The notes beneath the pieces were generated by a model. It saw nothing but the letters and a program-made list of their open reading frames with translations, did no database searches and had not been told where the DNA came from. Below, piece after piece: positions 1-47,451 of a DNA stretch of 64,000 bases. Numbering within the stretch: position 1 is the first letter of the stretch; every line of letters begins with the position of its first letter. Made by a program: the position numbers and the translations under genes. The DNA lies in assembly GCA_900318535.1 (NCBI GenBank), contig ONKU01000003.1:124001-188000 (forward strand), read 5' to 3'. The stretch comes from an uncultured Prevotellaceae bacterium (GTDB lineage: Bacteria > Bacteroidota > Bacteroidia > Bacteroidales > Muribaculaceae).

Positions 1-738
1 AGGGAAGAGGTAACCTATGCTATTGATCCTGAGCGCAATACTATCACGATGCTTGACAGTGAGGGTGATATGAATGCTCCTTTCCCTTACAACTGTGTGG
101 CAACGGGCTTGGTAGGCATCTGGAGTGACGACGGTTCGGTGGCTACTATCGAGTGGAACTCGACCTGGACTGCCATGGGTGAGACCGTTCCCGCTGTTCC
201 TGCCAATCCTGAGGCTGTAGACTTCTTTGACTGTGGCAGCGAGGATGGTTACACTCGTTTTGACTTCAACATCAATCTGGTGGACGTTGACGGTAATCCG
301 TTGAATCCCGACTGCTTGACCTACAGCATCTTCACCGACGAGGACGAGCTGTTCACCTTTGACAGTGAGACCTACGGCCCGCAGAATGGCTTTGACGAAG
401 ACATGACCGAGATTCCTTATGGTTACAGTGGTGAAGACTTCTACCTGCGCCGCGTTTACTTCTACCGCACCAACACGGGTGACAATCCTATGTTCACCTG
501 GCGCATCGGCATCCAGTTGAACTATACCGTTAACGGCGTGACCAACAAGTCTGACATCGTTTACCTTGAGGTGTATGACAAACCCAGCGCTGTCAATGAG
601 TTCAATGCCGGCAAGACCGTATCCAGCGTGAAGTACTTCAACCTGGCAGGCCAGGAGATGGCTCAGCCCAGCGGTCTGACCATCCAGCTGACGACCTACA
701 GCGACGGCACCACTAGCGCCACCAAGGTGATCAAGTAA
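1..738 (+). CDS. C-terminal part of a secreted protein with sorting-type tail
   Basis: The reading frame is open from base 1, so the gene starts upstream of the window; about 245 codons are visible. The product is acidic and beta-rich. It ends in a roughly 50-residue module (VNEFNAGKTV...KYFNLAGQEM...TTYSDGTTSATKVIK) that recurs almost unchanged at the ends of the proteins at 21471-22403 and 31163-33025. Such tails resemble secretion/anchoring C-terminal domains of Bacteroidetes, which suggests export, but the mechanism is inferred. The middle part aligns by eye with the C-terminal third of the 31163-33025 protein (DCG..DGYTRFDFN, then ITEIPYGY-like and YFYRTN..DNPMF segments), so the two are paralogues. 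A strong terminator follows. Confidence 0.85.
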   Translation, partial: REEVTYAIDPERNTITMLDSEGDMNAPFPYNCVATGLVGIWSDDGSVATIEWNSTWTAMGETVPAVPANPEAVDFFDCGSEDGYTRFDFNINLVDVDGNPLNPDCLTYSIFTDEDELFTFDSETYGPQNGFDEDMTEIPYGYSGEDFYLRRVYFYRTNTGDNPMFTWRIGIQLNYTVNGVTNKSDIVYLEVYDKPSAVNEFNAGKTVSSVKYFNLAGQEMAQPSGLTIQLTTYSDGTTSATKVIK

Positions 739-45952: not shown

Positions 45953-46465
45953 ATGATGAAGAAGTTTATCTATATGGCCGCTTTGCTGATGGTTGCAGCA
46001 TTGACGCTGACTGCTTGCGGCGACGACGAGCCTAAGGTGAAGACCACGGCGACAGCTACCTACAACATGACCTTCTCGCAGGATTTGCTGGAGGCCTGCA
46101 ACGTGTTCATTACCTATAAGGCCGAGAATGGCCGCAATGTCATGGAGGCAGTCAATTCGGTATGGTGGACTAAGTCCGTGACCAGCGACGACTTCCCTGC
46201 CGAGTTTGGCGTGATGTACAAGTTCAGCACCAAGTCTGACGCCGAATTGGTTAAGGAGAAATATGACTTGAAATGTGAGCTTAAATTCAATGTCGTGACC
46301 TCCAAGGGTGCCAGCTATTCCAATACGGTGACCATCATCGATGCCACTGGCGTTCCCAACAACAAGGTGGTAAGCGAGCTCAATAAGTATAGCGGCAAGT
46401 CAACCGGCTTCAGGGTGACTGAGAAGGGCATCGTTTCTGAGGCCAACAACCTGAAGTACGAATAA
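45953..46465 (+). CDS. Hypothetical lipoprotein
   Basis: 170 residues. The lipobox is ALTLTAC after a signal segment (FIYMAALLMVAALTLTAC), followed by GDDEPKVK. The rest is a beta-rich domain (ATYNMTFSQDLLEACNVFITYK, VKEKYDLKCELKFNVVT) I do not recognise. It is the last gene of the 41862-46465 cluster and is closed by a terminator. Confidence 0.75.
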   Translation: MMKKFIYMAALLMVAALTLTACGDDEPKVKTTATATYNMTFSQDLLEACNVFITYKAENGRNVMEAVNSVWWTKSVTSDDFPAEFGVMYKFSTKSDAELVKEKYDLKCELKFNVVTSKGASYSNTVTIIDATGVPNNKVVSELNKYSGKSTGFRVTEKGIVSEANNLKYE

Positions 46466-46490
46466 GTCATCAAGACCTACTGATACTAAA

Positions 46491-46519
46491 AGCGCCGGCA
46501 CATGCCTGGCGCTTTTTTT
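46491..46519 (+). terminator. Terminator of the surface-protein cluster
   Basis: AGCGCCGGCA, a 2-nt loop, TGCCTGGCGCT (one-base bulge) and TTTTTTT. It lies 14 bp before the left end of the repeat element. Confidence 0.9.
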
Positions 46520-46524
46520 GTCGT

Positions 46525-46922
46525 TAATCTACCATTAGTGTCCGGTAAAGAGATTAAACATCGTCACAATTCACTATATATGTGTCGAATAAGCCTTTCT
46601 GCTATATGATGGGCTTGGCTTTTGCCTCGTAGAGGCAGGTCGGGTCGAAGACTCGACTTTTATGGAAAACACCATGCAAGCTCATCGAAGATGAGCGCAG
46701 CTTGGTGGCAGCCATGTCAAGTGGAAAGTGCGTCGTAGACGAACTTCCACATCCGTCAAAAGCCTGTCAATCACAAAGTTCCTCTTCGAGGCACCTGCAA
46801 TGTTCAGCTCATGGACCAAGCTGCGAACCTCTTCGAGGTTCTTGCATGGTCTTTATCATTGAAATCGGTTCTTTGAACCGCTAACATCTTCGATGTTTCC
46901 CTGGACACTAATGATAATCTAC
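46525..46922. mobile_element. 382-bp MITE-like element with terminal inverted repeats and 8-bp flanking duplication
   Basis: The element spans 46533-46914. Its left end CATTAGTGTCCGG (46533-46545) and right end CTGGACACTAATG (46901-46913) are inverted copies differing at one base. TAATCTAC stands directly outside on both sides (46525-46532 and 46915-46922), as expected of a target-site duplication. No gene of any length lies inside. The interior is a large imperfect inverted repeat made of short hairpins: for example CCATGCAAG...CGCAGCTTGGT at 46672 is mirrored by ACCAAGCTGCG...CTTGCATGG at 46815. A non-autonomous transposable element is the simplest reading; the transposase family that moves it is unknown. 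It ends about 115 bp before the stop of the minus-strand lipoprotein gene. Confidence 0.7.
46624..46897. repeat. Array of eight short hairpins with 3-nt loops
   Basis: Stem/loop/stem positions: 46624-46636 (GCCTC-GTA-GAGGC), 46637-46659 (10-bp with two GU, loop GAA), 46680-46696 (GCTCATC-GAA-GATGAGC), 46721-46750 (core CGTC-GTA-GACG, extended by AAGT/ACTT and GTGGA/TCCAC), 46781-46791 (CCTC-TTC-GAGG), 46825-46841 (GAACCTC-TTC-GAGGTTC), 46866-46880 (CGGTTC-TTT-GAACCG) and 46883-46897 (AACATC-TTC-GATGTT). The left four have loops GTA/GAA, and the right four TTC/TTT, the reverse complement, as expected of a folded inverted repeat. Confidence 0.8.
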
Positions 46923-47028: not shown

Positions 47029-47451
47029 TTACAGATATCTCTCAATGACACTATCCTTGACACGGGTATAAACGACTGTAACAGGGTAATAGTCGTAAGA
47101 AAGCATCAATTTGTCGCCCTTTACTTCATAAGTAAATGTCTCGGTAATGCTATGACCATCGTCAGTGTAAGTCACCATAACCTTATCGCCAGAAACGGAA
47201 AATGTTCCATGTTCAACATCGACATCAGTTTCATCGAACTCGTAGTGAATATCCACTGAATGCCATTTGCCGTTTTTGGTGAATTGGACCAAATTTTCAT
47301 AGGCTTCACCGTCTTCATCATAGCCTTTAACCTGCCAAGTGCCAACGATGTCGGAATTCACGGGCTCATCCTTATCGTCACCACATGAAGTAACACCAAC
47401 AGAAACTAAAGCCAATAAAATGACTGTCAGGAAAAAATAGAATTTCTTCAT
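47029..47451 (-). CDS. Lipocalin-like lipoprotein
   Basis: 140 residues. The lipobox is VSVGVTSC after a signal segment (KFYFFLTVILLALVS). The body fits the lipocalin-like fold of small Bacteroidetes lipoproteins (IVGTWQVKGYDEDGEAY, ... FSVSGDKVMVTYTDDG, YEVKGDKLMLSYDY). It is a paralogue of the protein at 47791-48219. Ligand unknown. The 196 bp upstream contain a terminator. Confidence 0.75.
   Translation of the reverse strand: MKKFYFFLTVILLALVSVGVTSCGDDKDEPVNSDIVGTWQVKGYDEDGEAYENLVQFTKNGKWHSVDIHYEFDETDVDVEHGTFSVSGDKVMVTYTDDGHSITETFTYEVKGDKLMLSYDYYPVTVVYTRVKDSVIERYL

Follow-up and report, generated by a model that had tools for sequence, protein, structure and literature searches.

A non-autonomous element with IS4-type ends and a Y1-type hairpin array in the genome of an uncultured Prevotellaceae bacterium

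The 381 bp between positions 46533 and 46913 of the window (the whole stretch of 64,000 nucleotides analysed here, from an uncultured Prevotellaceae bacterium) are best read as a non-autonomous transposon (MITE) of the IS4 family, DUF4372 branch, carrying as a passenger the hairpin arms of a Y1 transposase gene, a reading to which we assign a probability of roughly 0.85. Two unrelated mobile-DNA systems appear to be combined in this one small element. Its membership among the IS4-family MITEs is well supported, and we infer that it is mobilised in trans by an IS4 transposase. The scaffold, comprising the ends, a spacer of ~61 nt and the motif GGGCTTRC, probably descended from an insertion sequence (IS) through loss of the transposase gene, while the hairpin array would be the descendant of a Y1 cassette. 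The evidence is computed from sequence and consists of the ends and the duplication that flanks them, empty sites of sister copies, the dispersal of relatives, the homology and order of the hairpins, a near-constant spacing within the scaffold, and compensatory changes in the hairpin arms. To the original prediction of an unrecognised mobile element at this place, the analysis adds a partner family, the precise position of the ends, and a passenger nested inside that belongs to another transposition system.

The element, its setting and its insertion

The inverted ends and the flanking repeat that had been described for this locus are both present exactly in the sequence (Table 1). CATTAGTGTCCGG stands at 46533 and its inverse ends at 46913, and TAATCTAC is found near both ends. 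The repeat noted originally is real, but the size of 382 bp and the 8-bp duplication with an offset proposed with it give way to 381 bp and a duplication of 9 bp with one mismatch; the choice between 8 and 9 bp is settled because sister copies carry perfect 9-mers. As predicted, there is no gene inside, the longest open reading frame wholly contained in the element encoding 60 aa (frames of at least 40 aa considered). The genes on either side are convergent. A terminator-like hairpin (arms 46488-46496 and 46508-46516, with a T run after them) stands 3' of the + strand gene at 45953-46465, and on the other side the element precedes the 3' end of a - strand lipocalin-like lipoprotein gene at 47029-47451 (PF13648), in agreement with the position between a terminator and a lipoprotein gene given earlier. 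Rfam has no family in the element at E values up to 1, its single weak match falling outside, and searches of plasmids and phages returned no match.

Table 1. Features of the element and its flanks, in window coordinates
Feature	Position	Strand	Remarks
Left copy of 9-bp target-site duplication	46524..46532	.	TTAATCTAC
Left terminal inverted repeat	46533..46549	+	CATTAGTGTCCGGTAAA
Spacer	46550..46610	+	length nearly constant in the family; sequence unconserved between cassette families
Family motif GGGCTTGG	46611..46618	+	usual form GGGCTTRC; starts 78 nt after element start
Hairpin a	46624..46636	+	GCCTCGTAGAGGC
Hairpin b	46639..46657	+	GTCGGGTCGAAGACTCGAC
Compound hairpin c	46670..46707	+	CACCA...TGGTG around GCTCATCGAAGATGAGC
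Hairpin d	46726..46746	+	AAGT...ACTT around GTCGTAGAC
Short spacer	46747..46775	+	place of the Y1 transposase gene in the homologous cassette, by comparison with L030
Hairpin d'	46776..46796	+	mirror of d; core CCTCTTCGAGG at 46781-46791
Compound hairpin c'	46814..46851	+	mirror of c; GACCA...TGGTC around GAACCTCTTCGAGGTTC
Hairpin b'	46866..46880	+	CGGTTCTTTGAACCG
Hairpin a'	46883..46897	+	AACATCTTCGATGTT
Right terminal inverted repeat	46900..46913	-	CATTAGTGTCCAGG on the - strand
Right copy of 9-bp target-site duplication	46914..46922	.	ATAATCTAC

With up to one mismatch allowed, CATTAGTGTCC has two sites in the 64-kb window, namely the two ends of the element. Two occurrences were also reached in 18 of 100 shuffles of the window, so the ends alone are not significant within 64 kb and the case for the element rests on its relatives. 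Among 153 distinct pairs of terminal inverted repeats (TIRs) lying 50-700 bp apart in the fetched loci, 17 are flanked by a perfect 9-bp repeat; control flanks shifted by 1, 2, 3, 4, 6, 8 and 12 bases gave 0, 0, 1, 0, 0, 0 and 1 of 153, respectively. Thirty-one distinct elements combine TIRs with no more than three mismatches and a duplication with no more than one. Seventeen full-length window-type copies (the window copy among them) were compared at their nominal ends: 8 or 9 of the 9 flank bases match in seven copies; one further copy reaches 9/9 after a shift of one base and two stand at 7/9, while the remaining seven, which count against the reading, match at 5/9 or fewer. Among the ten copies with at least 7/9 matching bases, L070 and L071 seem to represent a single insertion held in common.

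Joined flanks of eight of the ten prepared sites were searched for empty sites in the genus genomes, two candidates being scored per genome. The insertion in genome G050 (L039) is absent from G054 (290/300 identical) and from G047 (283/301), and at both empty sites the 9-mer ATTTGCAAT is present once at the junction. An insertion in G054 (L040) is likewise absent from G050 (282/336 columns, gaps included), where the 9-mer has one differing base. The junction is poorly conserved in a fourth candidate (G082, 256/308), which was left unused. Comparison with empty sites, suggested when the element was first noted, was thus successful for sister copies but not for the window copy, for which none was found in the genus with two candidates scored per genome.

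The ends are not unique to this locus, recurring both in the remaining genome and in relatives, and several sister copies have 9-bp duplications of their own. These dispersed relatives, with the duplications and empty sites of the sister copies, support the original interpretation of a transposed non-autonomous element. In its own genome (2.92 Mb in 43 contigs) the element as query yields 16 matches at eight places, which comprise, besides the element, two decayed copies of greater length, three half copies, a copy with an internal deletion and a Y1 gene cassette. In the genus, matches to the element sequence at E 0.001 or better occur in 74 of 101 genomes, the window genome being one of them; some of these matches are arms of Y1 genes and not elements, and copy numbers from this search are lower bounds, as at most six candidates per genome were scored. 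The sequence YATTRGTGTCCGG occurs 164 times in 42 of the 101 genomes, compared to 10 occurrences of a reversed control pattern, and the spaced scaffold pattern 61 times in 31 of the 101 compared to 10 control matches, although the 61 seem to include a few chance matches within genes. Beyond the genus the frequency of the spaced pattern does not exceed that of its control (18 vs 20). At five of these 18 outside matches, spread over two other genera (G142, G193, G144), the sequence around the end is of the expected kind, and one of the five, L402, is a 233-bp element with the perfect duplication ATTTTATTT and, by eye, no Y1-type array. We do not claim a separate family of TIR-less, core-only copies, since two such copies (L002 and L003) end, by eye, in decayed TIR-like text.

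The left part of one scaffold is nearly identical at seven sites of G073 (L383-L389), six of them at contig ends, which suggests recent spread of this scaffold. In G054, four contigs (C32, C39, C48 and C73; L370-L373) start within sequences closely related to the window element, which again suggests recent multiplication.

The hairpin array and the homologous Y1 transposase gene

The interior of the element is a series of local hairpins in mirror order, a b c d - d' c' b' a' (Table 1). As RNA, the element has a minimum free energy of -147.7 kcal/mol, compared to -102.5 (sd 6.0) for 100 shuffles (z -7.5). Over 23 aligned copies, 97.2% of the cells of these hairpins are paired, and 11 of the 60 hairpin pairs have changed on both sides, a number attained by none of 500 shuffles; when the hairpin partners are slid, two to eight pairs show changes on both sides. 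RNAalifold finds 12 of 73 pairs altered on both sides, with a covariation term of 0.25, which is unfavourable. In the spacer that precedes the array, length is retained and sequence and fold are not: a consensus RNA structure for these ~61 nt was rejected, RNAalifold over 35 scaffold clusters giving four pairs.

The same hairpins in the same order surround a Y1 (IS200/IS605-type) gene elsewhere in the window genome, at G000:C27:10273-10713 (PF01797; locus L030). This gene sits between hairpins d and d', and both of its arms match the interior of the window element with their order kept, the gene itself being missing from the element. The Y1 protein scores 59 bits with the NCBIfam IS200/IS605 model (cut-off 55) and 22.8 bits with the REP-associated model, below the cut-off of 80; comparison of its translation by eye finds YIINQREHH, the Y---Q--HH signature of TnpA Y1 subclass 1.2. 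At 13 of 30 genus loci of the gene the same two neighbour genes are present, and one of the two is present at one more locus, so the gene looks inherited in place. Relatives of the gene in named records come mostly from uncultured Bacteroidales, Prevotellaceae and Muribaculaceae, several of the records naming goat, sheep, roe deer or water buffalo. The genome has one other Y1 gene (G000:C18:63847-64254, locus L037), which is distant (36% identical) and has hairpin-rich flanks of another sequence type.

The window element is matched at E 1e-4 or better by 57 of the 102 flanks of 51 Y1 loci, one of the 57 (L266_DN) being a MITE that adjoins a Y1 gene. The 51 loci were also searched for a Y1 gene lying within IS4-type ends, and only weak TIR matches were found among them; the candidate L274 was rejected, having one TIR with two mismatches, none found on the other side and no duplication.

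One scaffold, its cassettes and the probable driver

The usual layout of the family is a TIR, ~61 nt without conserved sequence, GGGCTTRC, a hairpin array and a second TIR. With up to two mismatches allowed, the motif starts 76-79 nt from an element end in 25 of the 31 elements defined above; of the other six, two have it elsewhere and in four it was not found. The reversed motif at the same looseness is present in nine of the 31, none of them at 76-79. The spacing was also counted in loci fetched by TIR alone (107 distinct TIRs, both element ends among them). Here 24 distinct cases have GGGCTTR on the inner side of an exact TIR at 20-160 nt, and in 18 of them the distance is 77-79 nt. The control motifs gave one case with none at 77-79 (reversed) and 11 cases with one at 77-79 (reverse complement).

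The arrays behind this common end are of more than one kind. Y1 flanks (the 102 from 51 loci) are matched at E 1e-4 or better by 24 of the 31 TIR-bounded elements, and the other seven match none of them. Five elements (L184, L189, L209, L239 and L258) match flanks of Y1 genes ~56-61% identical to the window-type Y1, and four (L188, L253, L256 and L257) match flanks of Y1 genes ~39-41% identical to it. The match of one of the 24, L249, is to a stretch upstream of the arms of L155, outside the arms; by eye only, L249 resembles the arms of L037. As judged from these matches, a single type of MITE scaffold carries different Y1-type hairpin cassettes, and since arms of different Y1 subtypes occupy one place in different elements, acquisition or exchange of the cassette probably took place on more than one occasion. 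How many captures there were is uncertain, because in a tree of left arms the copies L002, L003, L053 and L056 fall among the arms of Y1 genes, with support that is weak in places.

The driver of the element is likely an IS4-family transposase (DUF4372 + DDE_Tnp_1), to which the TIRs and duplication lengths of genus IS point. Of the 30 loci fetched for this transposase group (L109-L138), seven are bounded by two matching TIRs and flanked by a perfect 9-bp duplication; L123, an IS with two good TIRs, has no duplication. Two of these transposases, when tested, score 254 and 177 bits with NCBIfam NF033592 (IS4 family, cut-off 115). In the window genome itself there is an IS whose ends read CATTAGTGTCCACTAAA and of which several copies are cut at contig ends; the transposase of this IS is of the DUF4372 + DDE_Tnp_1 type and of the IS4 family by NCBIfam; an open transposase frame of the IS4/DUF4372 group lies at G000:C34:645-1811. 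The original prediction had proposed looking for a transposase gene with the same ends, and such genes exist in part: IS4-family IS with ATTAGTGTCC-type ends and 9-bp duplications occur in the genus, but the ends of the own-genome IS share their first 11 bases with the element and then differ (CATTAGTGTCC-ACTAAA in the IS, -GGTAAA in the element). The continuation CCGGTAAA of the element is closer to the lineage of L125 and L123, with transposases 30% identical, than to the own-genome IS, L125 being an IS with the nearer TIR in another species. In the window genome, a search for an IS with the CCGGTAAA end found none, and the L125 protein as query found only the genome's own 30% relative and not the L125 lineage. 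The only internal sequence that points to an IS is GGGGCTTRCTTT: two of the three L125-lineage IS loci with a full-length gene have it no more than 4 nt past the stop codon of the transposase, oriented as it is in the MITEs. On this evidence the scaffold may be an IS that has shed its gene.

On this reading, a DDE transposase of the IS4 type, supplied from elsewhere in the cell, would bind the ~13-17-bp ends, excise the element and join it to a staggered 9-bp cut in the target, and repair of the cut would leave the 9-bp duplication. The passenger carried along, beginning shortly past the motif, would be the full set of hairpin arms of a Y1 gene in mirror order, with the gene absent.

It is possible, though we consider it doubtful, that two enzymes are at work, an IS4-type enzyme spreading the scaffold and Y1 enzymes loading or swapping gene-less cassettes at a putative fixed landing site just 3' of GGGCTTRC. 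This motif ends in a TTAC or TTGC word, and such words are the target type of some IS200/IS605 enzymes. A simpler history, in which a MITE captured its array once by chance and then passed it on by inheritance with no continuing link to Y1, also seems unlikely to us. It is favoured by the grouping of most window-type left arms in one cluster and by the mean identities of 0.87 among MITE arms and 0.74 between MITE and Y1 arms; however, arrays that match at least two other Y1 subtypes stand behind the same kind of end at equal distance in other elements, and small or array-less elements exist (L221 of 137 bp, as well as the 233-bp L402).

If a Y1 enzyme had inserted the element by IS200/IS605-like single-strand transposition, with the inverted ends incidental, the presence of the arm set of a Y1 gene from the same genome would be accounted for, but movement of the IS200/IS605 type is not known to make a target duplication, whereas the family shows 9-bp duplications as well as empty sites that contain a single 9-mer, and the Y1 gene, with its shared neighbours, looks inherited in place; we therefore regard this as very improbable. 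Membership of the element in IS200/IS605 is not supported, as there is no Y1 gene inside and a 9-bp duplication is present. The strong folding and compensated pairs might belong to a conserved regulatory or structured RNA element that lies between genes by happenstance. Against this, to which we give little credence, stand copies at unrelated loci, their 9-bp duplications and empty sites, and the lack of an Rfam match within the element; the empty sites contradict it as a full explanation, and the element may have a secondary role as RNA. Chance would suffice for the two ends within the window, as the shuffles demonstrate, but as a source of the inverted ends and repeat it is refuted by the relatives, with their shared ends and duplications, and can be practically disregarded.

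Relation to known systems and further arrangements

The IS4-type MITE with a Y1-type passenger, as we read the element, shares features with several described systems. Like MITEs of the IS4 family (DUF4372 + DDE_Tnp_1 branch) it is short, gene-less and multicopy, with ends and duplication length common to the genus IS; unlike them, most of its interior is a Y1-type hairpin cassette and not recognisable IS sequence, and the distance from the end to GGGCTTR is near-constant in its family, at 77-79 nt. BrickBuilt of Porphyromonas gingivalis is described as a Bacteroidetes MITE with IS-like TIRs and a second kind of repeat inside (PMC4596501). The window element too is a Bacteroidetes MITE with a second repeat kind inside, but the interior reported for BrickBuilt is a 23-nt minisatellite, its matches are to the IS5 family and its flank repeats vary in length among copies (PMC4596501). 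TIMEs, the MITEs derived from Tn3, provide a case in which a MITE scaffold gained a foreign module (TIME-RES), although there the family is Tn3 and the module, as described, is a site-specific recombination system and not a hairpin array (PMC4133298).

For the passenger, the closest descriptions are of tyrosine transposases. TnpA Y1 subclass 1.2 is characterised as low in copy number and as lacking, in general, the terminal structures typical of IS200 (PMC6006769). The homologous Y1 gene resembles it in its Y---Q--HH signature and in being one of two Y1 genes in its genome; unlike in that description, it is flanked by mirror-ordered arms, and gene-less sets of such arms occur in MITEs. Palindromes beside a tyrosine transposase gene, mirrored and with gene-less copies elsewhere, are also features of the REP, BIME and REPIN sequences with their RAYT genes (PMC3733652; see also PMC3116915, PMC2817692). 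The present case differs from them in the DDE-type TIRs and 9-bp duplications of the unit that is dispersed. Judged on the association of palindromes with a tyrosine transposase, kinship with REP/REPIN may exist, and the cassette would be drawn from tyrosine transposase systems of this kind. In the literature, largely open-access and at the level of titles and abstracts, we found neither a MITE with Y1-type hairpin cassettes nor DUF4372 mentioned together with a transposase.

MITEs and REP-like hairpin arrays are usually held to be separate, moved by different chemistries, and here one small element appears to unite both, while in different species arrays of several Y1 subtypes occupy the same layout. 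The system may provide the opportunity to ask how gene-less hairpin arrays spread and why their pairing persists, as well as whether Y1 genes described as lacking the properties of an IS still act on DNA elsewhere in the genome. Should two enzymes cooperate as outlined above, inherited Y1 genes of low copy number would have in the scaffold a permanent carrier for the spread of their hairpins.

Several other arrangements were seen around hairpin arrays and Y1 genes. At L062 (G038:C82, ~1471-1830) a gene-less, window-like hairpin array lies, by eye, between a different inverted pair, GTAACTATTCAGCGATT / AATCGCTGAATAGTTAC. Three Y1 loci of the 57-61% subtype (L278, L266 and L260) have, also by eye, outer inverted text like GGCTCACCCGATAAAA...TTTTATCGGGTGAGCC, possibly a second type of TIR around hairpin arms. 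The Y1 gene cassette at L065 (G085:C115) has long inverted text beyond its hairpin arms when inspected by eye, and at L157 (G072:C6) short tandem units like TTCGAAGACGCTACTGTGG lie beside the Y1 gene, both upstream and downstream.
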